Below, one piece after another: positions 40,868-62,075 of a DNA stretch of 64,000 bases. The notes under the pieces are model-generated. The model saw only the letters and a list, made by a program, of their open reading frames with translations. It was not told the origin of the DNA and made no database searches. Both the position numbers and the translations under genes were made by a program. The first letter of the stretch is position 1, and every line of letters starts with the position of its first letter. Where the stretch lies: assembly GCA_016235815.1 (NCBI GenBank), contig JACRIM010000023.1:62001-126000 (forward strand). Reading direction: 5' to 3'. This DNA comes from Planctomycetota bacterium (GTDB lineage: Bacteria > Planctomycetota > Phycisphaerae > UBA1845 > UTPLA1).

Positions 40868-40935
40868 GGGGAATGATGATGTCGGATTACGAATGACAAA
40901 TGACCACGAATGGCGGGCGATGAACCGCAGAAGGT

Positions 40936-42513
40936 TTACTTGAGCTTCTCGGGATCGGTGAGGGCGAGCTTGAGCCACTGCACATAGCGAAGTGTGTACG
41001 GGTCATTTTCGTCCTTCAAACGACGCTCCGCGAATTCGAGCAACTGTTTCTTGTCCAGGTGATCGATGCCGGTGCTGGCGAGCCCGTTCAATGCACTTTG
41101 CCGCAGGTCGGGTTCAGAATCACACCCCTTTAGGATGTCGAATAGAACTTCTTGCCGTGTTGCAAGCGTTGGGCCCGGTTCGAGTGAATAGTCATCATTC
41201 TTAATGCCAAGTTCATACAGAATCTGACTGCGAATGAGCAGATCGCTCGGAGATTCGCTTGAGTGCGATCGATAGTCGGCGAGGAGGAGTCGAATGAACT
41301 CTTCAGAATGAGGACCATTCGCGCGGCCGTCTTTCGGGTTATATAGCCACTTCAAGTATCTATCGTGCTCCTTGAGGTCCGAAGGAAGACCGATCCACTT
41401 GGTTCGTAGGCTCTCGGCCATGCGGTTTTTGTATTCATGGGCATGGTCCAACTTGCCTTTTGGCTTCGGCGTACGATTGGAATCCAGTTCGTCCAAAGCG
41501 GACTCGATCATCAAGATAACGATGGGATGCTGTTCGCGGGCCAACTGGTCATTCAACAATCGGACAATAACAGCATCGCCCTTTCGGCAAAGCTTTCGTG
41601 AACAACCGTAGAGATACCTGCGTTCCTTGTAGGGAAGGCCGCTAAGGGGAATCCGTTTGTGTTGTTCGCCTTCGATCGCCGCACATAGCGATTGATTCTT
41701 GGCCTTGGTCGCCAAAATGTAGAGTCGAACCAATTGCTGCATGGCGGTCATGCGAAGCCTGTCATCACCGGGCCAATCGGTAGAGGGGAGATTCTTCCAA
41801 TAGAAGTCAAAGAAGCGTTTGCAGTCGGCCTCCGAGGCCGTGGCTACTTTTTTCTCCAGGGCCTCGGACTCCAGTTGAAGGTTTCCAGCGTCGAAACCTT
41901 TCGCAAAACTCGGGCGTTGAGATAGTTTTCCAGTTGAATTGCCCAGCGCAATCACTTTTTTCAATGGGCGGCTGGGAGGTGGACAGATGACCTTGCCAAC
42001 TTCATCGCCGAGGTTCTGGGGATGGCCCTGCCAGACGATTCGGCCGCCGGGAGCTACTAGCACTGCGTAGGGAATGCTAGTGACACCGGCATTACAATCG
42101 CGCGGCTGGCCGGCACAGATGGCGTAGTCCATCTGACGTCGCTTGACGTAAGCCTCGACCTTGCCTGCGTCTTCATGTGTCACCCCAATGACGACCAGTC
42201 CGTGGGATTCGTACTGCTTTTGCAGCGTGCGGAGGCTCTCCACGTTCGCCATGCAAGGGGCACACCACGTCGCCCAGAACTCCACCACTACGAATCGGTC
42301 ACGCAGCAAGTCCCATGTCAAGGGCGAGGCAACGTTGAACCAAGTCTCACCCGTAAGGCTGGGAAGCGATTTGAACACGTCCGCTGGAAGGGTCGTGGCT
42401 CCGTCGGCGATCGCATTGCGGTTGGTCAATACCCAATATCCAGTAACGGTAAACGCGGTTGCTAATACGACAATCCCCGTACGCGCAATACGTTTTCGCA
42501 TAGTTGCATCCAC
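40936..42513 (-). CDS. TlpA-like thioredoxin-fold protein with long helical C terminus
   Basis: A 525-residue protein with an N-terminal membrane anchor or signal (about residues 11-30). Its extracytoplasmic thioredoxin domain has active site FWATWCAPC (C84, C87) and cis-Pro loop TSIPYAVLV near residue 146. The remaining ~340 residues are helical, contain several Cys and have no family that I recognise. It is a predicted thiol-disulfide oxidoreductase of the envelope. It lies 22 nt downstream of the Cys-rich protein gene, so the two are probably one operon and that protein may be its client (inference). The region has lower G+C than the chromosome around it. Confidence 0.8.
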   Translation of the reverse strand: MDATMRKRIARTGIVVLATAFTVTGYWVLTNRNAIADGATTLPADVFKSLPSLTGETWFNVASPLTWDLLRDRFVVVEFWATWCAPCMANVESLRTLQKQYESHGLVVIGVTHEDAGKVEAYVKRRQMDYAICAGQPRDCNAGVTSIPYAVLVAPGGRIVWQGHPQNLGDEVGKVICPPPSRPLKKVIALGNSTGKLSQRPSFAKGFDAGNLQLESEALEKKVATASEADCKRFFDFYWKNLPSTDWPGDDRLRMTAMQQLVRLYILATKAKNQSLCAAIEGEQHKRIPLSGLPYKERRYLYGCSRKLCRKGDAVIVRLLNDQLAREQHPIVILMIESALDELDSNRTPKPKGKLDHAHEYKNRMAESLRTKWIGLPSDLKEHDRYLKWLYNPKDGRANGPHSEEFIRLLLADYRSHSSESPSDLLIRSQILYELGIKNDDYSLEPGPTLATRQEVLFDILKGCDSEPDLRQSALNGLASTGIDHLDKKQLLEFAERRLKDENDPYTLRYVQWLKLALTDPEKLK

Positions 42514-42535
42514 ACATCGTGATTAAAGCAATCGC

Positions 42536-43378
42536 TTACTCGATTATCGCGGCGTAATTCGGATTCTGACTCACGACTTTGCGATACCAGTATTCTGTTG
42601 CGTATTTGTTGAACTCCTGCCGGATGCTCTCCGGGTCCGTTTGGCCGTTGGCCAGTGCTCTGGCAATGGCCCATGCATCAAACGAAGCCTTGTACTTTTC
42701 AAAAAGCTCCTGATCGACTTGGGATAGTTCGGACTGATGAGCGGTCACATCATTCAGCACCGCACACCGTTCGCAGGGCGTCATCGACGCCAATACTCCA
42801 CGGGTATCTATCGTATCCATGAAGGTAGGAAGCATTTGAAAAATCTCGTTTGCAGCACTGGGCTGTGCGTCTTCGGCGGCAATGATCGCTGCTCCAGCGA
42901 CACATCCTCCGTCTGCATAGCTGTTGGATGCAGACTGTGAATAGGTGTCGCCGCCGGACGCTGGTTGACCATCAATAACTGCTGAATACGCGTCGGAACC
43001 GAGGCGTAGCCTAATTATGGCAACTGGATGATGGGAATTACAAATTGTCTTACAATTCTGAACAGACCCGCTGCCTGGATGGTTCTGAGCTTTCGTATCG
43101 CAACAGTTATGACAATCAACGTTGTTGTCGCATACTAACGCACACGATGTGTTTGCACCTGGGCTTTGACACGCATGTTCATTTTCCCCCTGCGGCTCGG
43201 CCTCTTCCTGACAAATGGCTCCGATTGTAATAAACGGAGTGACCAAGATCAATGCGACTACTTTCAGCCGATTAAAACGAGTGGGGGGGGGGGGATAGAC
43301 ATGACGAACACTCCTTTTTCGAATAGTAACCCGGGTACAAATCGGCTGGTCGGAAGTGACGGACGAACTGCCATTCAT
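42536..43378 (-). CDS. Exported Cys-rich protein with a 12-C tract at its start
   Basis: Unknown protein with a hydrophobic export segment (LKVVALILVTPFITIG), then a Cys-rich stretch with about ten cysteines in some 50 residues (CALVCDNNVDCHNCC...CKTIC). A low-complexity linker and a helical C terminus follow. The frame as given opens at ATG 43378, with no ribosome binding site. The better start is ATG 43302, preceded by AAGGAG at 8 nt, but it leads into a run of 12 C and meets a stop after about a dozen codons. Ten or 13 C would join that start to the main frame. Candidate promoter TTGATT-18-TATACT lies at 43394-43423. The TlpA-like gene follows. Confidence 0.6.
   Translation of the reverse strand: MNGSSSVTSDQPICTRVTIRKRSVRHVYPPPPTRFNRLKVVALILVTPFITIGAICQEEAEPQGENEHACQSPGANTSCALVCDNNVDCHNCCDTKAQNHPGSGSVQNCKTICNSHHPVAIIRLRLGSDAYSAVIDGQPASGGDTYSQSASNSYADGGCVAGAAIIAAEDAQPSAANEIFQMLPTFMDTIDTRGVLASMTPCERCAVLNDVTAHQSELSQVDQELFEKYKASFDAWAIARALANGQTDPESIRQEFNKYATEYWYRKVVSQNPNYAAIIE
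43283..43294 (-). repeat. Homopolymeric C12 tract (G12 on the + strand)
   Basis: Twelve consecutive G on the given strand, three codons into the better-supported start of the Cys-rich gene. Tracts of this length are prone to slipped-strand mispairing and also to sequencing error. Confidence 0.85.
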
Positions 43379-43572
43379 ACCCTACACGAATGAAGTATAT
43401 CAATTGGTCTGGTTTCGAATCAAGAAAAATTGAAACAAAAATATAAAAACTTACTGCTCACGCAAATGTACAGATACCTATTTAGAATTAACAGCAATGT
43501 CGGGCCAATGATTAGCCGATTATCCACCATAACCCCATCAATGTAACTGCAGTACTGAAGCACAGTTACACC
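43379..43572. other. A+T-rich intergenic region, end of the inserted segment
   Basis: About 190 bases of strikingly A+T-rich sequence between the Cys-rich gene and the duplicated phosphodiesterase fragment. Apart from the promoter above I see no gene, tRNA or integrase site. Confidence 0.6.
43394..43423 (-). promoter_or_regulatory. Putative promoter of the Cys-rich/TlpA-like operon
   Basis: On the minus strand, TTGATT and TATACT are separated by 18 nt. Initiation near 43387 would leave about 8 nt before ATG 43378, or about 85 nt before ATG 43302. Confidence 0.5.
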
Positions 43573-43851
43573 ACGGCCCCCGACCTCGTCATTGGCTACA
43601 ACCGCGGCTATCGCGTCTCATGGGAAACCGCCATCGGCACCATCACCGACGCCGTCTTTCACGACAACACCAAGGCCTGGAGCGGCGACCACTGCATCGA
43701 CCCGGACCTGATCCCCGGCGTACTGTTCTGCACGCACAAAGTCACCAGCGAATCCCCCCGCCTCATGGACCTCGGCCCCACCGCGCTGTCCCTCTTTGGC
43801 GTCGACGTGCCAAAAAATATGGACGGCAAACCGCTGGAGGTGAAAGTTTGA
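43573..43851 (+). pseudogene. 3'-end duplicate of the phosphodiesterase gene (93 codons)
   Basis: The 279 bases match 40589-40867 almost throughout. The reading frame and stop are kept, and about 14 base differences are visible; all but one are synonymous (the exception is Thr to Lys in the second-last codon). There is no start codon or upstream domain, so it cannot make a working enzyme. The synonymous pattern shows that both copies evolved as coding sequence before truncation, so this is a paralogue or allele remnant rather than a fresh copy. It forms a direct repeat around a foreign-looking 2.7-kb segment. Confidence 0.88.
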
Positions 43852-43960
43852 TTCGCAAGTAATCGCAGTTACGCGCGCCGCGCATTCCCTCCCCTTACAA
43901 AGGGGAAGGCCAGGGTGGGGTTATTGAATGTGACATTCTCGCTTGATTTCCCGAAGAATT

Positions 43961-48465: not shown

Positions 48466-48494
48466 TTGCCCACATAGGGAACATGGGCTATACT
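48466..48494 (+). promoter_or_regulatory. Promoter of the second toxin-antitoxin pair
   Basis: TTGCCC (48466-48471) and TATACT (48489-48494) with an ideal 17-nt spacer. The antitoxin ATG at 48501 lies 6 nt after the -10, so the transcript would be leaderless. This excludes an upstream in-frame ATG at 48483. Confidence 0.6.
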
Positions 48495-48500
48495 GACATC

Positions 48501-48782
48501 ATGGCCACAGCTCCCGAAACCAGACAAGCCGATGAACGCGGCCGAATCTCCCTCGGCGCCGAGTTCGCCCATTGCACGTTCCTCGTCGAGAACGACGGCG
48601 GCACGATCATCATCCACCCGGCCCGCGTGATTCCCGAGCGCGAGGCATGGCTGTACGAAAACGAAACAGCCCTCGCCCGTGTTCGAACAGGGTTGGCACA
48701 GGCACGCGACAAAAAATTCGCCAAGCCGCCGTCACTCGACGCCGCGCGACGCCTTGCCCGGCGAATGGGCGACGATGAGTAG
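48501..48782 (+). CDS. Putative antitoxin, possibly AbrB-like
   Basis: A 93-residue protein with a short beta-rich N-terminal half (DERGRISLGAEFAHCTFLVE) that faintly resembles an AbrB/SpoVT strand pattern. The basic/helical tail (ARDKKFAKPPSLDAARRLARR) could bind a toxin. Assignment rests mainly on the next gene, a RelE/ParE-like toxin 15 nt downstream. The start follows from the promoter position. Confidence 0.6.
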   Translation: MATAPETRQADERGRISLGAEFAHCTFLVENDGGTIIIHPARVIPEREAWLYENETALARVRTGLAQARDKKFAKPPSLDAARRLARRMGDDE

Positions 48783-48797
48783 GTACACGGCATCGAC

Positions 48798-49154
48798 ATG
48801 AGCCAACGCTTCACGCTGATTTGGACCGACGAAGCCGCCGCGACGTTTCACGATTTGCAGAAAGCCGCCCTTCGCAGTCTTGCGACCCGCGGCAAGACCG
48901 ACAAGAAGAAATCCTCGAAACAAGAGGGGCTGTTCAAACAGATCGTCAAGTGTCTCAGCCTCCTGGAGGCCAACCCACGACACCCCGGTCTCAAGACCCA
49001 CGAGTTCACGTCGATCGAGCATCCCTTTAAGAAAGGCGAGAAAGTCTTCGAGGCCTACATTCAAAACAGAACACCCGGCGCGTACCGCGTGTTCTGGTGC
49101 TACGGACCGGACAAGGGCCAAGTCTCGATCATCGCCATCACCCCGCACCCGTGA
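48798..49154 (+). CDS. RelE/ParE-like toxin
   Basis: A 118-residue basic protein. The C-terminal strands (YRVFWCYGPDKGQVSIIAITPHP) and the middle KTHEFTSI segment match the RelE/ParE superfamily pattern in which a beta-sheet carries the RNA- or gyrase-binding residues. It follows the small putative antitoxin gene by 15 nt. The target (mRNA or gyrase) cannot be decided. Confidence 0.65.
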   Translation: MSQRFTLIWTDEAAATFHDLQKAALRSLATRGKTDKKKSSKQEGLFKQIVKCLSLLEANPRHPGLKTHEFTSIEHPFKKGEKVFEAYIQNRTPGAYRVFWCYGPDKGQVSIIAITPHP

Positions 49155-52256: not shown

Positions 52257-53021
52257 TCACGGGCAGGGCACGCCGTTCAGAAGGTCGCTCACGAACATGT
52301 CGAGATCGTTCGAATCAATGCCGCCCACACCGTCCATGTTTGCGCAGGCGCACGCGCCCGGCGCGAGGAAGCAGTTGACGAACGGTTGAATGTCGCCGCC
52401 GTCCTTGAGTCCATCGGCGTTCATATCCCCCGGGCATTGGCAGAGGACCTCCGTGATCGACACGTTGTCGAGCGCACACAGGAAGTTGTTCGCCGCGCTC
52501 CCGTTGAAGAACGTGATCGTGGTCGTGGTGCTCGTCGCCGTGAAGGGCACCGTAAACAACTTCCAATTCAGCATGTTCGTCGGGCCGATGGGGTTGGTGT
52601 AACCCACGCGGGCGCCGCCGTTGATGCTGAGATCCACGGTAGCGGGGAAGAAGGGGCCGCCGGTGGCCGAGCCGACGTAGAAGCTGAGTTGATAGACCCC
52701 GCCGATCATCGTCGCGACGTTTTGCGTCACCCCACTGGTACTCGAATTCGACGTGACGCCCGCGAGGTCGGTCCATTGGTTCCCGCTTTGGGCCTGGAAC
52801 ACGATGCCGCTCTGCGTGAAGGTTCCGCTGACCACCGATGAGTCGACGCCCACCACGGTCCACCCCGTGATGCCCGTTGACCCGCCCGCAAAATTGGTGA
52901 ATCCGCCGGAGGGGACGATCGGAACCTCGAACGAACCGTTTACGATTGGAAATGCCTTAGCCGGCGCGGCCGCCAGCGTCAGCACCGCTACGCACGCCAC
53001 GGTCAGTCGAATTGCCCGCAT
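52257..53021 (-). CDS. Secreted dockerin-type protein
   Basis: A 254-residue exported protein: signal peptide (AIRLTVACVAVLTLAAAPAKA), then a beta-sandwich of about 160 residues opening with VNGSFEVP, similar to DUF642/carbohydrate-binding-like modules. The C-terminal dockerin-like pair has GDMNADGLKDGGD and MDGVGGIDSNDL. The calcium-loop asparagine/aspartate pattern is clear in the first repeat and degenerate in the second. Such proteins may attach to cohesin-like partners at the surface. GGAGGGG precedes the ATG at 53021. Confidence 0.82.
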   Translation of the reverse strand: MRAIRLTVACVAVLTLAAAPAKAFPIVNGSFEVPIVPSGGFTNFAGGSTGITGWTVVGVDSSVVSGTFTQSGIVFQAQSGNQWTDLAGVTSNSSTSGVTQNVATMIGGVYQLSFYVGSATGGPFFPATVDLSINGGARVGYTNPIGPTNMLNWKLFTVPFTATSTTTTITFFNGSAANNFLCALDNVSITEVLCQCPGDMNADGLKDGGDIQPFVNCFLAPGACACANMDGVGGIDSNDLDMFVSDLLNGVPCP

Positions 53022-53275: not shown

Positions 53276-53340
53276 GCAACCCCTCTAATTTTTCCTTCCT
53301 CCCCCTCCGGTCGGCGTTGGCGACCGGACGGGGAAGCATC

Positions 53341-53446
53341 GTAGGGTCCGCTGTGCGGACCATGAAGGGGAGGTTAGCGTTTGTTTTGAACCGTCCGTGA
53401 ATGGGCACGTTCGCTCGGCCAACGTGGTCCGCACAGCGGACCCTAC
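53341..53446. repeat. Inverted pair of a 22-bp hairpin repeat (GGTCCGC family)
   Basis: The unit with core GGTCCGCTGTGCGGACC lies at 53341-53362, and its reverse complement at 53424-53446. A third copy, in the second orientation, lies at 55049-55072 inside the phage-like island. Confidence 0.75.
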
Positions 53447-53696: not shown

Positions 53697-54443
53697 TCAC
53701 GTCTCCACCGTCAGCGTATTACTCGCCGCGCTTTCACCACCCACGTTCACCGCCGTGACGTAATACTGCACCGTCGTGTCGAAGGCCTGCGACGCAAAGA
53801 GTTTACTGGTCGGCGTCTTCACGCCCGTCTCAAAGAGTTTGAACGACGAGTCGCCCGGCGCCTTGCGATAGAGGCGGTAGAAATCGGCGACGCCGGTCGT
53901 GGCCGATGGAACCGGCGGCGTCCACACCAGTTTCATCATGTTTGACACTCCCGACGCCGTCTCGGCGAGATTCGTCGGCGCGGCCGGCGCGGCGAGGGCG
54001 AAGATCGGCCAGGCCCGGTAGTGCACCTCGTAGATGGCGGCGCGATCGTCGGCATCGCGAAAGGTGATGTTGAGGTTGATCAGCTCGATGCCCGTGACGA
54101 TCGCGTAGTTATCCAGGCGCGTTTTGACCGTGTCGATGAGCGTGAACGCACCATGCGCGGAGGAATCTCCGAGCCGCGGGTTCGATGTCTGTCGCAGCGC
54201 GCGGGCGACGACCAAGATGGTGAACCGCGCGCCCAGCCGGTCGGGCCACGTCTCCGGCGCGGTCGGCTCTTCAACAAATGCGACGAAGGCCGACGGCGTC
54301 CGCTCGCGAAGCATCGCATCGCGCAGCGCCGCGCGGTAGTCGCCCGACACGCCCTTGACGACGGCGAATGCGGGCGAGCCGCTGATGGTCGCGCCGGCGA
54401 GGCGCGTGATGATGGCGGATTCGAGATCACCGAGGCGGGACAT
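53697..54443 (-). CDS. Mu gp37-like protein fused to a fibronectin III domain
   Basis: A 248-residue protein. Residues 1 to about 155 resemble the DUF1834/Mu gp37 family of phage proteins (MSRLGDLESAIITRLA...; RDADDRAAIYEVHYRA), which are encoded between head and tail genes. Residues about 158-248 form a fibronectin type III domain (PTNLAETASGVSNMMKLVW, FYRLYRKAPG, YYVTAVNVGGES). Mu gp37 itself is about 190 residues and lacks FN3, so this is a fusion. ATG 54443 with AAGGA 6 nt upstream is preferred. Last gene of the capsid island. Confidence 0.7.
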   Translation of the reverse strand: MSRLGDLESAIITRLAGATISGSPAFAVVKGVSGDYRAALRDAMLRERTPSAFVAFVEEPTAPETWPDRLGARFTILVVARALRQTSNPRLGDSSAHGAFTLIDTVKTRLDNYAIVTGIELINLNITFRDADDRAAIYEVHYRAWPIFALAAPAAPTNLAETASGVSNMMKLVWTPPVPSATTGVADFYRLYRKAPGDSSFKLFETGVKTPTSKLFASQAFDTTVQYYVTAVNVGGESAASNTLTVET

Positions 54444-54511
54444 GGGGATTCCTTGAAAAGTCAAAACGTCGAAAAATCGAAAAGTCGAAATGGAGCGGCC
54501 GAGGGGGTTTT

Positions 54512-54579
54512 AGAGCCGCGACCGCGAGGAAGCGGGTGTTCTCGATTCGGAGAACCCGCTTCCTCACGGGCGCGGCTCT
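54512..54579. repeat. Long inverted repeat between capsid genes
   Basis: Arms 54512-54543 and 54550-54579 pair over about 30 bases around a 6-base loop, with the GAGGAAGCGGGT/CCCGCTTCCTC core. A related sequence with the same CCGCTTCCT...CGGGCGCGGCTC end is seen at about 55180-55257. Confidence 0.75.
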
Positions 54580-54584
54580 GACTG

Positions 54585-55028
54585 TCACAAATCCTCCAAC
54601 TCATCGCGGGTCATGCTGCGCGGATTCGTCCGAACATCCGCAATCACGCCAAGCGACGTCGGCTCGGCCCGCGCAATCGTCGCGGGCAACTGCACCTGCC
54701 CTGCCGCCACGCGGGCCAGCCACTCGACGGCCTCGCTTCGACGGCGCACCACGTCCGTCGGCACCGGCGGCCGCCTGCTGTGCAAGCGATACGACACCAG
54801 ATCGAGCACGAAGGTGCGCAACACATTCTGCAATTCGCTTTCGCCGGACAAATCGACCGGCACGCGATACCGCGCGGCGAGATAACTGTTCACCTCGCCC
54901 TCGGCGCCGAGCAGGGCCTGATTCACCTTGTTCACGTCGGCCGAGCCGCTGCCTGCGTCATCGGTGAGCTGCACATAGGTCGGAGTGCCGAGGAAGAGTT
55001 CGATGTCGGTGTTCGTGATATATGCCAT
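54585..55028 (-). CDS. Mu gp36-like protein (DUF1320)
   Basis: A 147-residue phage protein opening MAYITNTDIELFLG and containing VNQALLGAEGEVNSYLAARYRVPVD, the DUF1320 pattern of Mu gp36, whose length (about 140) it matches. In Mu it is encoded just after the major head protein and is thought to act at the head-tail junction. GGAG lies 6 nt before the ATG. Confidence 0.82.
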   Translation of the reverse strand: MAYITNTDIELFLGTPTYVQLTDDAGSGSADVNKVNQALLGAEGEVNSYLAARYRVPVDLSGESELQNVLRTFVLDLVSYRLHSRRPPVPTDVVRRRSEAVEWLARVAAGQVQLPATIARAEPTSLGVIADVRTNPRSMTRDELEDL

Positions 55029-55048
55029 GAGACGCTCCGATGTAAGAC

Positions 55049-55259
55049 ATGGTCCGCACAGCGGACCCTACGTAATTCAACGAATTTCGAATGACGAATT
55101 ACCAATTACAAAAGTGCTGCTCCTCACGCGGGAGCCTTTGGTAATTCGTCATTGGACATTGGTAATTCAGCAGCGCGGCCGAGCTTTCGCCCGACCGCGC
55201 CGCGCTTCCTTACTCTCCGGCCAAAGAACCCGCTTCCTGACGGGCGCGGCTCGGATTGT
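55049..55259. repeat. Repeat cluster between gp36-like and head-protein genes
   Basis: Contains a GGTCCGC hairpin (55049-55072), a perfect 14-bp inverted repeat AATGACGAATTACC (55090-55103) with its complement (55140-55153), and a GC-rich element like that at 54512-54579 (about 55180-55257). None is phage coding sequence; they match the host intergenic repeat style. Confidence 0.7.
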
Positions 55260-56174
55260 TTACGTGAAGTCCGTCAACACGGCATATTGCCAGTAGCCAT
55301 AGGCCATGCGATACCGGGCGCGGACGCCGTAGAGAAACTTCTCGCGGCGGAAGCCCTCGTCCGATTCATCCGTCAGCGCGTTGAACTCCACCGGCTCGCG
55401 ATCCTGAAAGATGAACGGCCGCACCACGCCATCCGTCTTCAGCAGGTACCACTTGCTCTTGTCGGTGAGCCACGGCATCGAGATGACGCGAGCGATGCCC
55501 TTGAGGACATTCGTGCTGTCGCCGAGCACCGTCGCGTTGATCGCCTGCGACGCCGTGAAGAGCATCGTCGGCGGCACCACGCAGACCAGCCCGCTCGCCG
55601 AGACCAGCATCGGCTCGCCCTGATCGTCCTTGAAGGTCAGCATCTGGGCGATGGCGACCTTCAGCGCCTCCTGAAATTCGGCGACGGTCGGGGCGTTCTC
55701 ATTCGACGCATCAAAGGTGAGCGCGTTGTTCTGATTGCCCGACGCCCCGGAGACGTGCGCCGCGTTGAAGAAGCTGACGCCGTCATAGGCGTTGTTGCCC
55801 GCCGTCTCCCCGGCGATGAGCAGTTGCGAGACGAGATAATCCTTGTGCGTCGCGGCGCGTTGGGCCAATTCGGCCACGCGCAGACGAATCTGCCCGGTCT
55901 GGTCGTCGCTGATCTCGTCGCGGTCGACTTCGATTGTCGCCTCGTACTTGAGATTCCGCAGCGAATAGCTCTCGGTGCGCAGACCCGCGGCAAGACGGCC
56001 CGTGCCCCATTCGCGGATGCGCGGCACGGTGCCGAGCCAACGATAGGTCTCGCGGTCGGTCGTCGAGATGACACGCGTGCTGAGTTCGCCGAAGTGCGTC
56101 GGCGTGGCGTCGAAACGATTGAAGAACTCGCTTCGCAGGCCCTTGGTGAGTAACCCGGTATTGATGACGGCCAT
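55260..56174 (-). CDS. Major head (capsid) protein, Mu gpT-like
   Basis: A 304-residue protein, the same length as Mu gpT (about 305). It shows the Mu-like head pattern: N-terminal INTGLLTKGLRSEFFNRFDA, then STTDRETYRWLGTVPRIREW, YEATIEVDRDEISDD and a C-terminal KFLYGVRARYRMAYGYWQ. It would form the HK97-fold capsid shell. A strong AAAGGAGG lies 7 nt before the ATG. The decoration-like gene lies 52 nt upstream. Confidence 0.88.
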   Translation of the reverse strand: MAVINTGLLTKGLRSEFFNRFDATPTHFGELSTRVISTTDRETYRWLGTVPRIREWGTGRLAAGLRTESYSLRNLKYEATIEVDRDEISDDQTGQIRLRVAELAQRAATHKDYLVSQLLIAGETAGNNAYDGVSFFNAAHVSGASGNQNNALTFDASNENAPTVAEFQEALKVAIAQMLTFKDDQGEPMLVSASGLVCVVPPTMLFTASQAINATVLGDSTNVLKGIARVISMPWLTDKSKWYLLKTDGVVRPFIFQDREPVEFNALTDESDEGFRREKFLYGVRARYRMAYGYWQYAVLTDFT

Positions 56175-56226
56175 GAGAAATCCTCCTTTGGAGTGTGTCG
56201 TTTCCAGTTCGTGGTCTTAAGACGAG

Positions 56227-56985
56227 TTACGGCAGTTCGAAGAAACGGATGGTGAGCAGCCCGCCGACGCCGGCGCTGGACGAGGCCGAGCCGACCTTGG
56301 CCCAGATGCGCAGGTTCTTGGCGACATCGCGCCCGAAGAGCGAGAGATTCGCCGGGACGTGCGCCGACAACGTCGCGAGATTGAAGGCGCTGACGATTTG
56401 CGTCGGATTCGTGTTGTCGGTGCCGACATCGAGGTTGCCGGAGTTCGGGACGGTGTTAAAGCTGACCTGGGCGCTGACCACTTTGATCGCCCGCTGCGTG
56501 ATCATCACCGGGTTGGTCGTCGCGGAACCGACGGCACTGGCCAACGGCACGGCCACGACTTGCTCGTTCTGCGGCATCGCCAGCGGCAGGATGCGCACGA
56601 TCCCCTGATTGCTGCCAATGTGGGCGATCAGGATTCCGCAGTAGCTGCCGCCGAGTTGATTCGATGCACTGGTGGTTTCGTTGTCAGCGGCATAGACCGG
56701 CGCGCCGGCCCAGGCCTGCGTGGCCCCGGCGACGGGCAGGACGAAATCGCCCTGCGTATAGAGGCGGACGAACTGCTCGCCGCCCGCGCCACCGGCGGTG
56801 TTGTCGATCTCCTCGTAGGCAATGCCCGCAAAGAGATCGCCGGCAACGAGGTTGCGGGCGAAGCCGCTGGTGCGCTCGATGCCGACGAGCGCGCCTTTGT
56901 AGATGCGCGCCGACGCGGCAACGGGAAACGTTCGCAGTTCCTGATCGACGTAGCGGGACAGTTCACGATTGGCGGTGATGGCCAT
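56227..56985 (-). CDS. Phage head protein, decoration-like (DUF2190-related)
   Basis: A 252-residue protein starting MAITANRELSRYVDQELRTFPVAASARIYKGALVGI. The pattern of a short helix followed by an 'ARIYKGALVG...GYARN/LVAGD.FAGIA' beta-barrel is typical of DUF2190-like capsid decoration proteins that sit on the shell. The C-terminal part is a second beta domain. Its place between protease and major head protein fits. AAAGGAG lies about 9 nt before the ATG. Confidence 0.75.
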   Translation of the reverse strand: MAITANRELSRYVDQELRTFPVAASARIYKGALVGIERTSGFARNLVAGDLFAGIAYEEIDNTAGGAGGEQFVRLYTQGDFVLPVAGATQAWAGAPVYAADNETTSASNQLGGSYCGILIAHIGSNQGIVRILPLAMPQNEQVVAVPLASAVGSATTNPVMITQRAIKVVSAQVSFNTVPNSGNLDVGTDNTNPTQIVSAFNLATLSAHVPANLSLFGRDVAKNLRIWAKVGSASSSAGVGGLLTIRFFELP

Positions 56986-57113
56986 GATGGATGCTCCTTT
57001 CAGTTTTTAGTTCAAGAGAGAATGAATTTCGTCTCATGTCATTGCGTTTATTCAACATGCCACCGGGGTCTCCGGGGCGACTCTTCGACTCGCGCTTCCG
57101 TGCTCGGATTACG

Positions 57114-58061
57114 TTATGACGCCGCGTCGCGCACGGCGGCGTGAACAAATGCCTCTTCCGTGCAGATTCGCTCGAGGATGGATTTGTTTGCCCGCCACTC
57201 GGAGCGGGCCGATTGCTCAACGGCGCGGCGACGGGCATCTCCGGACGGCGCGGTCGCGGGACCGGTGAGTCGCCCCAGCGGCACGATCAACGGCGCGGAG
57301 GCCTCCCAGCGGTCGAACTCGGCCGGGTCGCGCTCGGCAAGAGTCAGCGCCCATTCGCGCTGAGCGGCCGTCAGCTTGCCGGCGAACATGGCCCTCTCGA
57401 CGCGCGCCGATGCATCACGAAGCGATTCACTGCGCTGCAACGAGCGGATGCGCTGCGCCGCGGCGACAAGCACAAAGTCCTCCGTCGCCGATTCATCCAG
57501 CGAAAGCAGCCGGCGCAACTCCACCGATGGGTCTTCGTTCGTCGGCGTAACTCGGTTGATGACCGGCTTCATCCCGACGATGGCGGGCTTGTTGGTCAGC
57601 GCGATCGAGTGCAGCGCGACGACGCGGCGATCCTCGCGGCGAATCAACGCGACCGGCGACAAGTAGCGATAGTGCCGCGCGGCGAGCTTCTCGGCAGCCT
57701 CGGCCGTCCACTCCACCTCGGCCCAGAGACCCGGCGTGGTGTTGGCCTGCGCCGCCTCTTCAGGCGAAACGATGACAAGTTTTTTCACCCAGCCCGCCGC
57801 CGGTGCGAGGCCGGTGGGCGAGCTGTATGCGCCGCCGAGGGTTTGGTGTTCGTAGTCGATGGGCAGATCGGTGCCGTGCTCGCGAAAAGCGGCGATGGTC
57901 GCGGCGGCCGATTGCTCGTCAACGACGAACGAGCCGGCCGTGCTTTTCACATCGCCCCAGGGGACGACGAGGATTCGCCCGGGCACCAGCGGATCGGACA
58001 GCGCGGCCGATTCCATGACGACTTGTTCGAGGTCGGTGTCGAACGTGGATTCGATGGACAT
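57114..58061 (-). CDS. Mu gpI-like head maturation protease/scaffold
   Basis: A 315-residue protein with the phage I-like signature LPIDYEHQT (67-74) after VPWGDVKSTAGSFVVDEQ, and HSIALTNKPAI further on, which is where serine/His catalysis is placed in this family. The C-terminal third is helical and would be the scaffold part. Mu gpI is somewhat longer. It precedes the decoration-like and major head genes in transcription order, as in Mu. AAAGGAG lies 9 nt before the ATG. Confidence 0.85.
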   Translation of the reverse strand: MSIESTFDTDLEQVVMESAALSDPLVPGRILVVPWGDVKSTAGSFVVDEQSAAATIAAFREHGTDLPIDYEHQTLGGAYSSPTGLAPAAGWVKKLVIVSPEEAAQANTTPGLWAEVEWTAEAAEKLAARHYRYLSPVALIRREDRRVVALHSIALTNKPAIVGMKPVINRVTPTNEDPSVELRRLLSLDESATEDFVLVAAAQRIRSLQRSESLRDASARVERAMFAGKLTAAQREWALTLAERDPAEFDRWEASAPLIVPLGRLTGPATAPSGDARRRAVEQSARSEWRANKSILERICTEEAFVHAAVRDAAS

Positions 58062-58155
58062 GAGAGTCTCCTTTCAAATTGGACGATTGCCTTGAGTCTC
58101 GTGATCGATGAAGTTCAAATTACCAATTCCCAATTACAAAATCCGTGCGGGCGAG

Positions 58156-59463
58156 TTACGGTTTTCCTCCACCGGCGTCGGTTCTGCCCGCAAGCGTTGG
58201 TTCGCGCTCATTCGCCTCTGGGATGCCGAGCGATGCGTGCGCCCAGCGGCTCGGCACGCGCGCGCCGAGTTGGTTCACGGCCACATCGAGAACGCGGGCG
58301 AGCTTCTCGGTGTCCTCGCGCGGATCGAGAATCCGCTGAAAGTGCGGCACCGGCGCATCGGGCCCGAAGCGCAGTCGCACCAGCGGTGTGAGCAGATCGC
58401 GGCGAAGTGTCTGCGCCTCCTTGCGCAGATCGTCGTCGCGGATGTCCATGCGGACGTGATCGTGGACCTTGGCCGCGCCCGCGCTGGCCAGCATTCGCGC
58501 TGTGTCGGTGGTCAGCGTCTGGCCGAGCCAGGCCTTGCTGATCTCGCGGTCGAAGTAGAGGCACAGGTTCTCATACAGATTCACTTCGCCCGGCGTGCGC
58601 GACTGAATGATCTCGAGCTCGACAGCCTTTGAGAAAATTCCCGTCGCATCGGCCCCCAGGTTCTTGAGCATGTCCAGCAGTTCGCGCTTCTCCTCGGGCG
58701 AAGCGGTCGGGCCATAGCGGGCGATGCGCACCGGCATCCCGAAGATCTCCGCGAAGATCAGCCAGTCCTTCAGGGCGAAGTGTTTGCCCAGATAGGCAAG
58801 GGCCGTCGCGCGCAGCAGCCCGCCGCGGGCCGGGTGCTGGTTCCGCGCGTGCGGCGTGTGCACGATGAATTTGTCGGGCGGAAGCGGAATGCCGTCGAAC
58901 TTCGATTCGTCGGTCAGGATGCGAATCTCACCGAGTTCGCCGAGCGCGATGCGGGCAAAGTCGACGGGCACGAGTTCGGCAAGAGCGACGCCACCTGCAT
59001 CGCCGCGCCAGACAAGCTCCACCAATGCAAGATTTCGCCCCACCGCCAGCGACAAGTGCGCGAGCGATTCCTCCACGCCCGGCGTGCGCCGCAGCACATC
59101 ATCGCAATAGCCGGCCACATCGTCGGCAAGCCTGCGGTCCGCGCTTCGGCCGGCGCGCCAGCCGGGCAGTTCGGCCGCCGAGACGATCTGCCAGCGCAGA
59201 CCGGTCACGGCGAGTCGCCGGGTGTTGGCGACACTGAAAAGATGCGCGTCCTTTTCTTCCATCTGCTCGAACAGCGCGAGCTGAGCGCCGAGATCACCCG
59301 CGTCGGCCTGTTTGAAGAGCGACACAAGCCGCGACGGCGTGAGTCCGTCGGCCGGGTAATCACGAAAGGTGTCTTCCTTTCGACGGTGCGTGATGAGGCC
59401 CGGGCGCGGCATTCGTGCAGGAGCGCGACGTACGGCAAGGGCGAGTCGTTCGATGAGTTTCAT
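58156..59463 (-). CDS. Portal protein, Mu gp29-like (DUF935)
   Basis: A 435-residue portal: ...LFEQMEEKDAHLFSVANTRRLAVTGLRWQIV is the DUF935 hallmark, followed by ALVELVW, the conserved helix-rich middle (GLLRATALAYLGKHFALKDWLIFAEIFGMPVRIARY) and SKAWLGQTLTTD. Portals form the dodecameric DNA gate at one capsid vertex. Slightly shorter than Mu gp29 (about 510). ATG 59463 has GGAG 7 nt upstream; the longer open frame upstream runs through the terminase gene and is not used. Confidence 0.9.
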   Translation of the reverse strand: MKLIERLALAVRRAPARMPRPGLITHRRKEDTFRDYPADGLTPSRLVSLFKQADAGDLGAQLALFEQMEEKDAHLFSVANTRRLAVTGLRWQIVSAAELPGWRAGRSADRRLADDVAGYCDDVLRRTPGVEESLAHLSLAVGRNLALVELVWRGDAGGVALAELVPVDFARIALGELGEIRILTDESKFDGIPLPPDKFIVHTPHARNQHPARGGLLRATALAYLGKHFALKDWLIFAEIFGMPVRIARYGPTASPEEKRELLDMLKNLGADATGIFSKAVELEIIQSRTPGEVNLYENLCLYFDREISKAWLGQTLTTDTARMLASAGAAKVHDHVRMDIRDDDLRKEAQTLRRDLLTPLVRLRFGPDAPVPHFQRILDPREDTEKLARVLDVAVNQLGARVPSRWAHASLGIPEANEREPTLAGRTDAGGGKP

Positions 59464-59494
59464 CTTCGGTCTCCGTGATTCGTTGATTGACACG

Positions 59495-60790
59495 TCACCA
59501 GGCTCCTTCGCGGGCAAAGGCCGACGGCTCGACGGTCGTGAACTCGATGGGGCCGGTGTCGCATTCCGCGGCGTGCAGGCCGAGCGCCGCCGCCCAGAAT
59601 CGGTCGGCGTGCCCGTCGCCCGCGCGATCGGCGTCGTAGCGAATGTGGCCGGTCGCCGTGGTGATGCGGCTGACCGAGTGCCAGTCGCGTGCGATGGCAT
59701 CGTCGACCGGAATGCGAAGGAGCCCGCGCTCGGCGCAGACGCGGAGTCGGCCGGCGAGCTGCGCCTTGAGCGCGGGTGTGAAGGAAAGCCCTTCGACGCG
59801 ATGCTCGCCGAAGCGAGTGGTAAGAGTCTCCGCAAGTTGCATCCCCAGCCCGCTTGCATCGATGCAGCAGCGGCGGACGCAGGCGCGGCCGAGCAGTCCG
59901 TTGAGTATCTCTTCCTGTTGCGCGAACGGTGCGTTGTCGAATGTCAGCACACCGCGCGTGGTGAAGGTGTCACCCGTCTTCTCCCAAATCCAGATGGCCG
60001 TGAGATCACGGCGGCGGCCGATATCGACGCCGAGAAAAATGTCAGCGCGTTTGCGATTGAGGGCGCGGTCGTCCTGCAACGTGCCGAGGTTCACATCGTG
60101 GCAGCGGCGGATGATCTCATAGGGCATGAAACTGGTGGATTCATCCACGAACTCGCAGCAGAACTCCTGTCGCCATGCAACGTCGCCATCGATGCCCTTG
60201 CGGAGCGATTCGCGGTCGACCTCCAGCCCCTGGCCAATCGCTTCGTCGAGCGTGAGCGTGCTCGTCGTGAACGCCGGATTCTCGGCGAGGCGGTGAAACA
60301 TGTTCTTGCAGCCGCGCGGCGTCGATGCGATGTCGAGCTGTCCGTCGCCGCGAAGAAGCGTGGGAAAAAGCGACGCCCAGATGCCCTCGTCGTCGGCGTG
60401 CATGGCGAATTCATCGAGAAAGACATCGCCGGTATAACCGCGGGCCGTCAGCGGATTCGCGGGCAAACCGATGACGCGCACGCCGTTGGGAAGCGCGATT
60501 TCAAGTTGGCGAAGCGACGTGTCCTTGAAGAAGGAGGATTGAATCGTGTCGGTGTACACCCGCAGTGCATGGCAATGCTGTCGAACTTTTCGCATGGCCT
60601 CGCGGCTTTGGCGCTGGCCCGCGGAGAGGATGATCTGATTACGATGATGCGTGAGCGCCCGAACAAGGCGGCGCAGCGTGAAGGTAAAACTCTTGCCCGT
60701 CTGCCGCGCCCAACAATTCCACGTGAACCGCGCCCGGCGCAGCACGGCATCGCGCTGATAGGCCAACAGATTGATGCACGAACCATCCAT
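59495..60790 (-). CDS. Terminase large subunit, Mu gp28-like
   Basis: A 431-residue DNA-packaging motor: ATPase with Walker A ARQTGKS (28-34) after the adenine-binding AYQRDAVL, and Walker B VFLDEF (123-128). The C-terminal RNase H-like nuclease has D255 in FLGVDIGRRRDLT and a second Asp in CIDASGLG. All key residues are intact. First gene of the seven-gene island; nothing resembling a small terminase or regulator precedes it. GGGAG lies upstream of the ATG. Confidence 0.9.
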   Translation of the reverse strand: MDGSCINLLAYQRDAVLRRARFTWNCWARQTGKSFTFTLRRLVRALTHHRNQIILSAGQRQSREAMRKVRQHCHALRVYTDTIQSSFFKDTSLRQLEIALPNGVRVIGLPANPLTARGYTGDVFLDEFAMHADDEGIWASLFPTLLRGDGQLDIASTPRGCKNMFHRLAENPAFTTSTLTLDEAIGQGLEVDRESLRKGIDGDVAWRQEFCCEFVDESTSFMPYEIIRRCHDVNLGTLQDDRALNRKRADIFLGVDIGRRRDLTAIWIWEKTGDTFTTRGVLTFDNAPFAQQEEILNGLLGRACVRRCCIDASGLGMQLAETLTTRFGEHRVEGLSFTPALKAQLAGRLRVCAERGLLRIPVDDAIARDWHSVSRITTATGHIRYDADRAGDGHADRFWAAALGLHAAECDTGPIEFTTVEPSAFAREGAW

Positions 60791-60938: not shown

Positions 60939-62075
60939 ATGGCTATTCAATCGATCATCAGCGTTACACTGTTTTTCGCGTCGGCGGCAACGGCGCAGTC
61001 GCCCACCGTCTTCCTCGCCCGCCCCGGGCAGGTCGTGGCGCTGGTCGATTCCAACGCCGATGGCGACTTTCTCGACTTTGCCGAAACACGCACCTACGCC
61101 GCCGCCTTGCCCGCGGGGATCGGCGCGATCGCTGCACGTCCGAACCGGCTGTTGGTCGTCGACGGCTCGACGGGCGGCCTGCGTTCGCTGGTCGATCTCA
61201 ACGGCGACGGCGATGCACTCGATTTCGCCGAGGTATCGCAATACGGCATTGCCCCGGCCGCGCCGCCGGGACTCGTCGCCATTGCGTGCCAATCCGATGA
61301 CACTTGCTATTGCGTGGACACCGCGTCGGGCAATCTGATCCGCTTCGTCGATCTCAATCACGATGGCGACACCCTCGATTTCGCCGAGGCAACGGCCGTC
61401 GCGAGCGGGCTAGGGGCAACGGTCGCGCTGTCGGTGCGGCCCGACGGCGTCATCCTCGCGGCGCTGTCGCTCACCACGACCCCGGTGATGATCCTGCAGG
61501 ATCGAAATGCGGACGGCGACTTCTTCGATTTCGCCGAGTCGATCAGCTATGTGGAAAACGCAGCCGCCGGCGCAAGCCTCGCAGCGGTCACCGACACACT
61601 CGCATTTCTCGCCCGGCTCGCAGACCAGCGCGTGCTCGCCCTCCGCGACCTGACCGGCGACGACGACGCACTCGACTTCGGCGAAGTGACAACGTGGGCC
61701 GAGGGGATCGCCGGCGCAAGTCGCGTGGCGGTCGAATCCGATGGCGGCGTGCTCGTCGCATGCACCGATGCCGGCGGAAGTGTTTGGCGTTTGCGCGATC
61801 GTAATAACGACGGCGACGCGCTGGACTTCGGCGAAGCGCTGATCGTCGCAACGGGCTTCACGTCGCCAAGTGGAATCGCCGTGCAACCGACAACGACGAC
61901 TTGCATTGCGGGCGACATGAACAACGACGGCGCGGTGGACCATGCAGACGCACCACTGCTCGCCGCGGAACTTCTCGCCCCGGGCAATTCGCCGTTGTGC
62001 CGAAGCGACGTCAACGGCGACGGCGGGCTGGACGGTCGGGACATTCGGGCCTACCTGCTCGCGGGATTTCCTTGA
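60939..62075 (+). CDS. Secreted propeller-like protein with six EF-hand-like loops and a dockerin
   Basis: A 378-residue protein with signal peptide (MAIQSIISVTLFFASAATA). Six near-repeats of about 50 residues each carry a loop of the form DxNxDGDxxDFxE, at residues 37-49, 86-98, 138-150, 188-200, 237-249 and 287-299. Between them lie beta strands such as RLLVVDGSTGGLRSL and VILAALSLTT, suggesting a six-bladed propeller with a calcium loop on each blade. The fifth loop is degenerate (DLTGDDDALDF). A C-terminal dockerin follows (GDMNNDGAVDHAD and SDVNGDGGLDGRD). Divergent from the terminase. Confidence 0.85.
   Translation: MAIQSIISVTLFFASAATAQSPTVFLARPGQVVALVDSNADGDFLDFAETRTYAAALPAGIGAIAARPNRLLVVDGSTGGLRSLVDLNGDGDALDFAEVSQYGIAPAAPPGLVAIACQSDDTCYCVDTASGNLIRFVDLNHDGDTLDFAEATAVASGLGATVALSVRPDGVILAALSLTTTPVMILQDRNADGDFFDFAESISYVENAAAGASLAAVTDTLAFLARLADQRVLALRDLTGDDDALDFGEVTTWAEGIAGASRVAVESDGGVLVACTDAGGSVWRLRDRNNDGDALDFGEALIVATGFTSPSGIAVQPTTTTCIAGDMNNDGAVDHADAPLLAAELLAPGNSPLCRSDVNGDGGLDGRDIRAYLLAGFP

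Follow-up and report, generated by a model that had tools for sequence, protein, structure and literature searches.

What keeps a phage head and its packaging machinery in a bacterial chromosome when the rest of the phage is gone? The window analysed here, a stretch of 64,000 nucleotides from a Planctomycetota bacterium of the class Phycisphaerae (GCA_016235815.1, contig JACRIM010000023.1), raises this question with seven open ORFs at 53697–60790, all on the minus strand, in the order TerL, portal, protease, decoration, gpT capsid, gp36, gp37, which is the Mu order (Table 1). The explanation we prefer, with moderate confidence, is that an uncultured order of the Phycisphaerae carries a viriform, domesticated by its hosts and passed on vertically, that resembles gene transfer agents (GTAs) and derives from a Mu-headed siphophage.

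The head module and its surroundings

Six of the seven genes are assigned strongly by Pfam and the decoration gene has a solid PHROG match, so that ORFs, Pfam and PHROGs agree with the original prediction of seven intact Mu-like head and packaging genes. The catalytic residues, also expected to be intact, are kept: the Walker A motif (R-Q-[TV]-G-K-S), the DE box and the nuclease Asp residues of TerL (N and C domains, Pfam 1e-14 each) show no variation in an alignment of 14 homologues. The most probable start codons are ATG 59463 for the portal, whose reading frame stays open further upstream, and ATG 54443, not TTG 54464, for gp37. The C-terminal part of the protease is presumably the scaffold, the decoration protein bears an additional C-terminal domain of about 120 aa, and the gpT capsid protein is expected from family membership to be HK97-type. 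The AlphaFold2 model of gp37 matches the Mu tail terminator (Z 13.2–13.4) and chain 6tba_4A of RcGTA (Z 11.0), and its N-terminal domain is predicted to have a tail-terminator fold. The gp37 C-terminus has a weak Pfam match to FN3 (E 0.02, below cut-off) and pLDDT values < 50 (residues 149–248).

Table 1. Features of the module and its flanks (positions in the window).
Feature	Position	Strand	Evidence or remark
Downstream host gene, DUF642 secreted protein	52257..53021	-	PF04862 1.7e-8
gp37, N-terminal tail-terminator fold (1-148, predicted) + lineage-specific C-terminus	53697..54443	-	PF08873 (Gp37) 1e-6; AlphaFold2 fold match
gp36-like head-tail adaptor	54585..55028	-	PF07030 (Gp36) 5.5e-23; phrog_195
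Palindromic dispersed host repeat (GTAGGGTCCGCTGTGCGGACCAT), between MCP and gp36	55048..55072		Exact copies elsewhere
Major capsid protein (MCP), gpT family	55260..56174	-	PF10124 1.3e-56
Decoration/cement protein	56227..56985	-	phrog_1731 ('virion structural') 3.6e-20; PF09956 (Phage_cement_2) just below cut-off
Mu I-like head maturation protease	57114..58061	-	PF10123 (Mu-like_Pro) 8e-51
Mu-type portal protein	58156..59463	-	PF06074 (Portal_Mu) 1.3e-85; phrog_113
TerL (terminase large subunit)	59495..60790	-	PF03237/PF17289
Divergent upstream host gene, dockerin/Ca-binding	60939..62075	+	PF00404 5.8e-7

Genome-wide searches of the window genome (4.58 Mb) found one copy each of the module-type TerL, the portal and the gpT capsid gene. 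The Mu F gene, which marks a Mu-like prophage, was absent from the whole genome, as were matches to the T1 (hub-like) and T3 profiles of the tail-tip genes found in relatives (T1–T7, see below). This extends the earlier observation that neither F nor tail genes flank the module: tail tube, tape measure and T1–T7 are all missing beside it, no transposase, repressor or integrase was called there, and no dedicated small terminase gene, lysis gene or regulator was found with it. GC3 of the module genes is 0.77–0.85 against a window mean of 0.78, and their codon frequencies correlate with those of the host at 0.92; composition and codon use thus match the host.

Both neighbours had been described as dockerin proteins. 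This holds for the upstream gene, which also lies near the module in three other genomes of host family f1 (G008, G015 and G001, neighbour clustering); in the downstream DUF642 protein, a C-terminal dockerin-like motif was recognized by eye only. A QueD-like pterin synthase lies downstream of the module in eight f1 genomes. QueD of the window genome sits on contig C12, apart from the module, indicating that the downstream flank of the window has changed. ParB lies downstream of the module in four f8 genomes, as does ParA in the f7 genome G056; host neighbours of the module recur across genera. The repeat within the module (22–25 bp) has exact copies at 53340–53364 and 53425–53446 and is also found near the TerL–portal locus of another genus (L052). 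Elsewhere in the window, two small adjacent genes (48483–49154) resemble by eye a toxin–antitoxin pair, the second being RelE-like, and about 3 kb of lower GC (0.51–0.55) at 40868–43960 contain no gene according to a simple gene caller.

Distribution, inheritance and selection

The search of relatives suggested by the original prediction located the portal family in 16/17 genomes (11/12 genera) of the window's family and in 95/114 genomes of the order, all qualities included. Among the good order genomes (≥ 90% complete with low contamination), portal and gpT capsid gene are each present in 62 of 65. In a completeness-filtered sample the portal occurs in 70/73 order members versus 11/323 other members of the class; elsewhere in the phylum, 16 of about 383 genomes carry it. 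TerL was found in 76/87 genomes outside family f3, and the module is mostly single-copy across the order. F, which Mu-like head modules normally include, is present in just 10 of the 65 good genomes, largely alongside second-copy prophages. Common prophages therefore do not explain the near-universal portal and capsid pattern. An order-type portal (54% identity) is also encoded on L079 (JADFTG010000028.1), titled 'Chloroflexi bacterium', which is likely a mislabelled or misbinned MAG.

In the portal tree the host families f1, f3, f7 and f8 each form one clade, and nine label changes are needed versus 47.6 with shuffled labels. The TerL tree, with f1 and f7 each a clade, agrees with it; f1 and f3 are each a clade in the MCP tree. 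Between congeners, dN/dS (NG86) of the head and packaging genes ranges from 0.04 to 0.19, lowest towards the capsid protein, and resembles that of adjacent host genes (0.12–0.14); the gp36 pair in L118/L119 was left out because the wrong stretch had been matched. The values are not elevated and indicate purifying selection. The trees show a module that has mostly been inherited vertically and has co-diversified with its hosts.

Two readings can be judged at this point. That the locus is a decaying Mu-like prophage remnant would fit its being phage only in part, as well as losses in two relatives (G001, G012, see below). We consider it very improbable and have dropped it, since the module is near-universal in the order and co-diversified with its hosts, its frames are intact, its catalytic sites conserved and its dN/dS low. 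Complete prophages in close relatives, which had been named as a sign of decay, do exist, but they are separate second copies that belong to none of the host-family clades in the portal tree. A phage satellite or capsid-carrying mobile island, which the original prediction had also entertained, would explain a compact packaging set without replication genes. The fixed host neighbours across genera, the mostly single copy, the vertical tree and the lack of a called integrase beside the module make it the least probable reading of all; presence in 62/65 genomes together with the vertical tree contradicts a mobile, patchy element, and this reading was dropped as well.

In some relatives the module is split. 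TerL–portal and protease-to-T6 lie on separate contigs amid host genes in G012, and the module of G056 is likewise divided between contigs. In G059, a single contig carries both TerL–portal and capsid, with about 20 kb between them. G051, whose genome is one contig, has TerL–portal at around 48 kb and gp36-to-T6 at around 3.80 Mb; these loci are about 530 kb or more apart, which likely rules out packaging of the system's own whole genome there. The frames in split modules are open, except for an interrupted T1 in G012. Such scattering could hardly be survived by a phage and would be tolerable for a host-run system, so the split loci favour host ownership. Loss does occur, as judged from the broken T1 of G012 and from G001, where TerL and portal are kept (G001:C7, L055) and the gpT capsid gene was undetected in a 96% complete genome.

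Family f3 stands apart. Its modules keep portal, protease, decoration, capsid and gp36 and lack the module-type TerL; in G037 an unrelated TerL (phrog_38 type) adjoins the portal. The window capsid protein is 65–82% identical to module homologues in f1, f5, f7 and f8 and 37–40% identical to those in f3, which group with viral contigs in the MCP tree. In the f3 modules (L111, L113, L114, L116, L068) a GNAT acetyltransferase also separates portal from protease, and there is a run of small genes, some for one-TM proteins that resemble one of prophage L126. Family f3 may represent a separate capture or independent domestication, in which case order-wide numbers may mix two events; without f3, the count for the portal is 50/52 good genomes. 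Extending this to every family, so that the same phage heads were captured repeatedly rather than domesticated once in an ancestor, seems unlikely to us. It would account for the f3 capsid, the different TerL, the acetyltransferase and the small membrane genes of f3, and for the mixing of prophage capsid proteins with those of f8 in the MCP tree. However, the portal tree unites f1, f2, f5, f7 and f8 (support 92), the TerL tree has f1 and f7 clades, and the gp37 fusion is shared by f1, f7 and f8.

Tail genes of relatives and reduction of the module

The module runs on into T1, T2, T3 and other genes in genomes of f1 (G002, G008), f5, f7 and f8. T1 is about 700 aa long. T1–T7 have no Pfam or PHROG match, lectin-domain (Laminin_G_3) proteins apart, and the AlphaFold model of T1 (six sequences, pLDDT 43) is too poor for use; their 'hub/tip' label derives from position and from homology to phage genes in L125/L126. 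Where the modules of relatives end in tail-tip genes, lectin-like (Laminin_G_3) proteins are encoded (L109, L063, L161, L065), which are surface-binding candidates. Distant relatives of T1 and relatives of the MCP are present in IMG/VR.

Second, phage-like loci with tail genes were seen in four genomes (L122, L123, L125 and L126 in G005:C9, G014:C2, G086:C7 and G084:C16) and are probably Mu-headed siphoviral prophages of the order; F is also present in L125/L126. L126 reads TerL, portal, F, protease, decoration, capsid, gp36 and terminator, followed by a putative tube, a putative tape measure, the distal tail protein, T1, T2 and T3; tube and tape measure were assigned only from where they lie and how long they are. 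Tube and tape-measure genes thus lie between terminator and distal-tail genes in the related full prophages. The N-terminal half of the gp37 profile matches the prophage terminator (L125) and the C-terminal half the distal-tail gene (L125, L126), a fusion found in many relatives (f1, f7, f8). We infer that a deletion took out tube and tape measure and fused their neighbours; neither gene was found in any domesticated copy examined. Among f1 genomes without T1–T3, the gp37 C-terminus is absent in G010 and G011 and T4-like in G014–G016; that of the window differs from all of these and is FN3-like (weak match). The seven genes are what remains of a once larger module whose tail-tip and fibre-like genes (T1–T7, lectin-domain) persist in other relatives. 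Phage capsid proteins are up to 68% identical to that of the window (IMG/VR contig L143), suggesting that the source lineage still circulates. Stepwise loss is visible in living relatives, from full prophage through module with tail tip to head only, and this series makes the purpose of keeping a domesticated capsid testable.

Such reduction also suits a domesticated capsid with a role other than transfer, either a tailless compartment filled with DNA or protein or a factor that keeps incoming Mu-headed phages from assembling properly (superinfection interference). No domesticated copy examined has tube or tape measure, the window module has no T1–T7 beside it, T1 and T3 are absent genome-wide, and interference would have a target in the related full phages that circulate (L143; second prophages L122–L126). 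Yet an empty shell or decoy would not need the invariant catalytic residues of TerL, and the lectin-domain and hub-like proteins of relatives suggest an outside target; we regard a non-transfer role as rather unlikely. Slightly less so, though still only a tentative proposal, is an ancient tailless viriform present across the order, in which a Mu-type head packs host DNA without an injection machine and the neck displays host-evolved domains (FN3-like, lectin). If true, this would be a GTA or DNA-carrying organelle without known parallel.

A candidate viriform and its relation to known systems

GTAs are defined by particle proteins derived from caudoviricetes, encapsidation of mostly random host DNA, full endogenisation (often in several loci), inability to package their whole own genome, mostly vertical inheritance with co-diversification with hosts, and DNA delivery to other cells (Kogay et al., 2022, PMC9662315). 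For the module, the seven head and packaging families establish a caudoviricete origin of the encoded particle proteins, order-wide presence together with the split loci of G012, G051, G056 and G059 shows full endogenisation, and the portal (f1, f3, f7, f8) and TerL (f1, f7) trees show mostly vertical inheritance; these are the three criteria that sequence data can address. The intact TerL motifs are only consistent with host DNA encapsidation. That the module is domesticated is very probable, and the suggestion of a domesticated or GTA-like system in the original prediction has held up on near-universal and mostly single-copy presence, vertical inheritance, purifying selection and split loci in some relatives; its satellite alternative has not, there being neither mobility nor patchiness. 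A DNA-filled particle is a reasonable expectation, whereas DNA transfer in the window's own lineage is possible but doubtful. With the tail genes missing from this lineage, we refrain from calling the module a GTA outright and allow for the role of a tailless container.

For the preferred GTA-like viriform we propose the following scheme, in which particle formation and DNA packaging are deduced from the gene set and release and transfer to other cells are speculative. The operon would be expressed under some host cue and gpT would assemble around scaffold and portal. The I protease would then mature the shell, which the decoration protein would coat, and TerL would load chromosomal DNA. The neck would bear no long tail and would instead be sealed by gp36 and by gp37 with its terminator fold. 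In relatives, T1–T7 and lectin-domain proteins could serve as a short tail tip or as a device for adhesion; the window lineage would have lost these genes and given gp37 a different C-terminal domain. The module genes can serve as markers for virome and proteome searches.

Encapsulins are likewise host-owned HK97-fold shells (PMC8346489), but the window locus has a portal, a terminase and a maturation protease, and gpT is not of the encapsulin family. An encapsulin identity was rejected on the Pfam assignment of a gpT-family shell with portal and TerL. Gene families and gene order are shared with Mu-headed siphophages (FP_Mushu, Rhodovulum RhkS_P1, Pseudomonas B3-like phages, L143), and the window portal is 34–36% identical to those of the named Mu-headed siphophages. 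However, L143 has genes assigned to tail tube and tape measure, which are missing beside the window module, the related prophages also carry F, and the transposition genes expected in Mu-headed siphophages are not found next to the window module.

The Rhodobacterales GTAs (RcGTA, Rhodogtaviriformidae) resemble the module in being host-owned caudoviricete head and packaging genes that are order-wide, vertical, under purifying selection and spread over several loci, and an RcGTA chain is among the fold matches of gp37. RcGTA differs in having a tail, a small terminase and demonstrated DNA transfer, whereas the window module encodes a predicted Mu/gpT head, has dispensed with tube and tape measure and resides in a planctomycete. 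Bartonella BaGTA and Brachyspira BhGTA (VSH-1) are also independent domestications of tailed phages (PMC9662315). BhGTA is tailed; accounts of BaGTA tails disagree. Literature searches, which were not exhaustive, found no report of a planctomycete or Mu-type GTA, and GTAs with an established genetic basis are known from three clades, two alphaproteobacterial and one spirochaete (PMC9662315). BaGTA and BhGTA differ from the window module in ancestor, in host phylum and in having a demonstrated function; a conserved candidate of Mu-headed ancestry in the Planctomycetota would add a further independent domestication.
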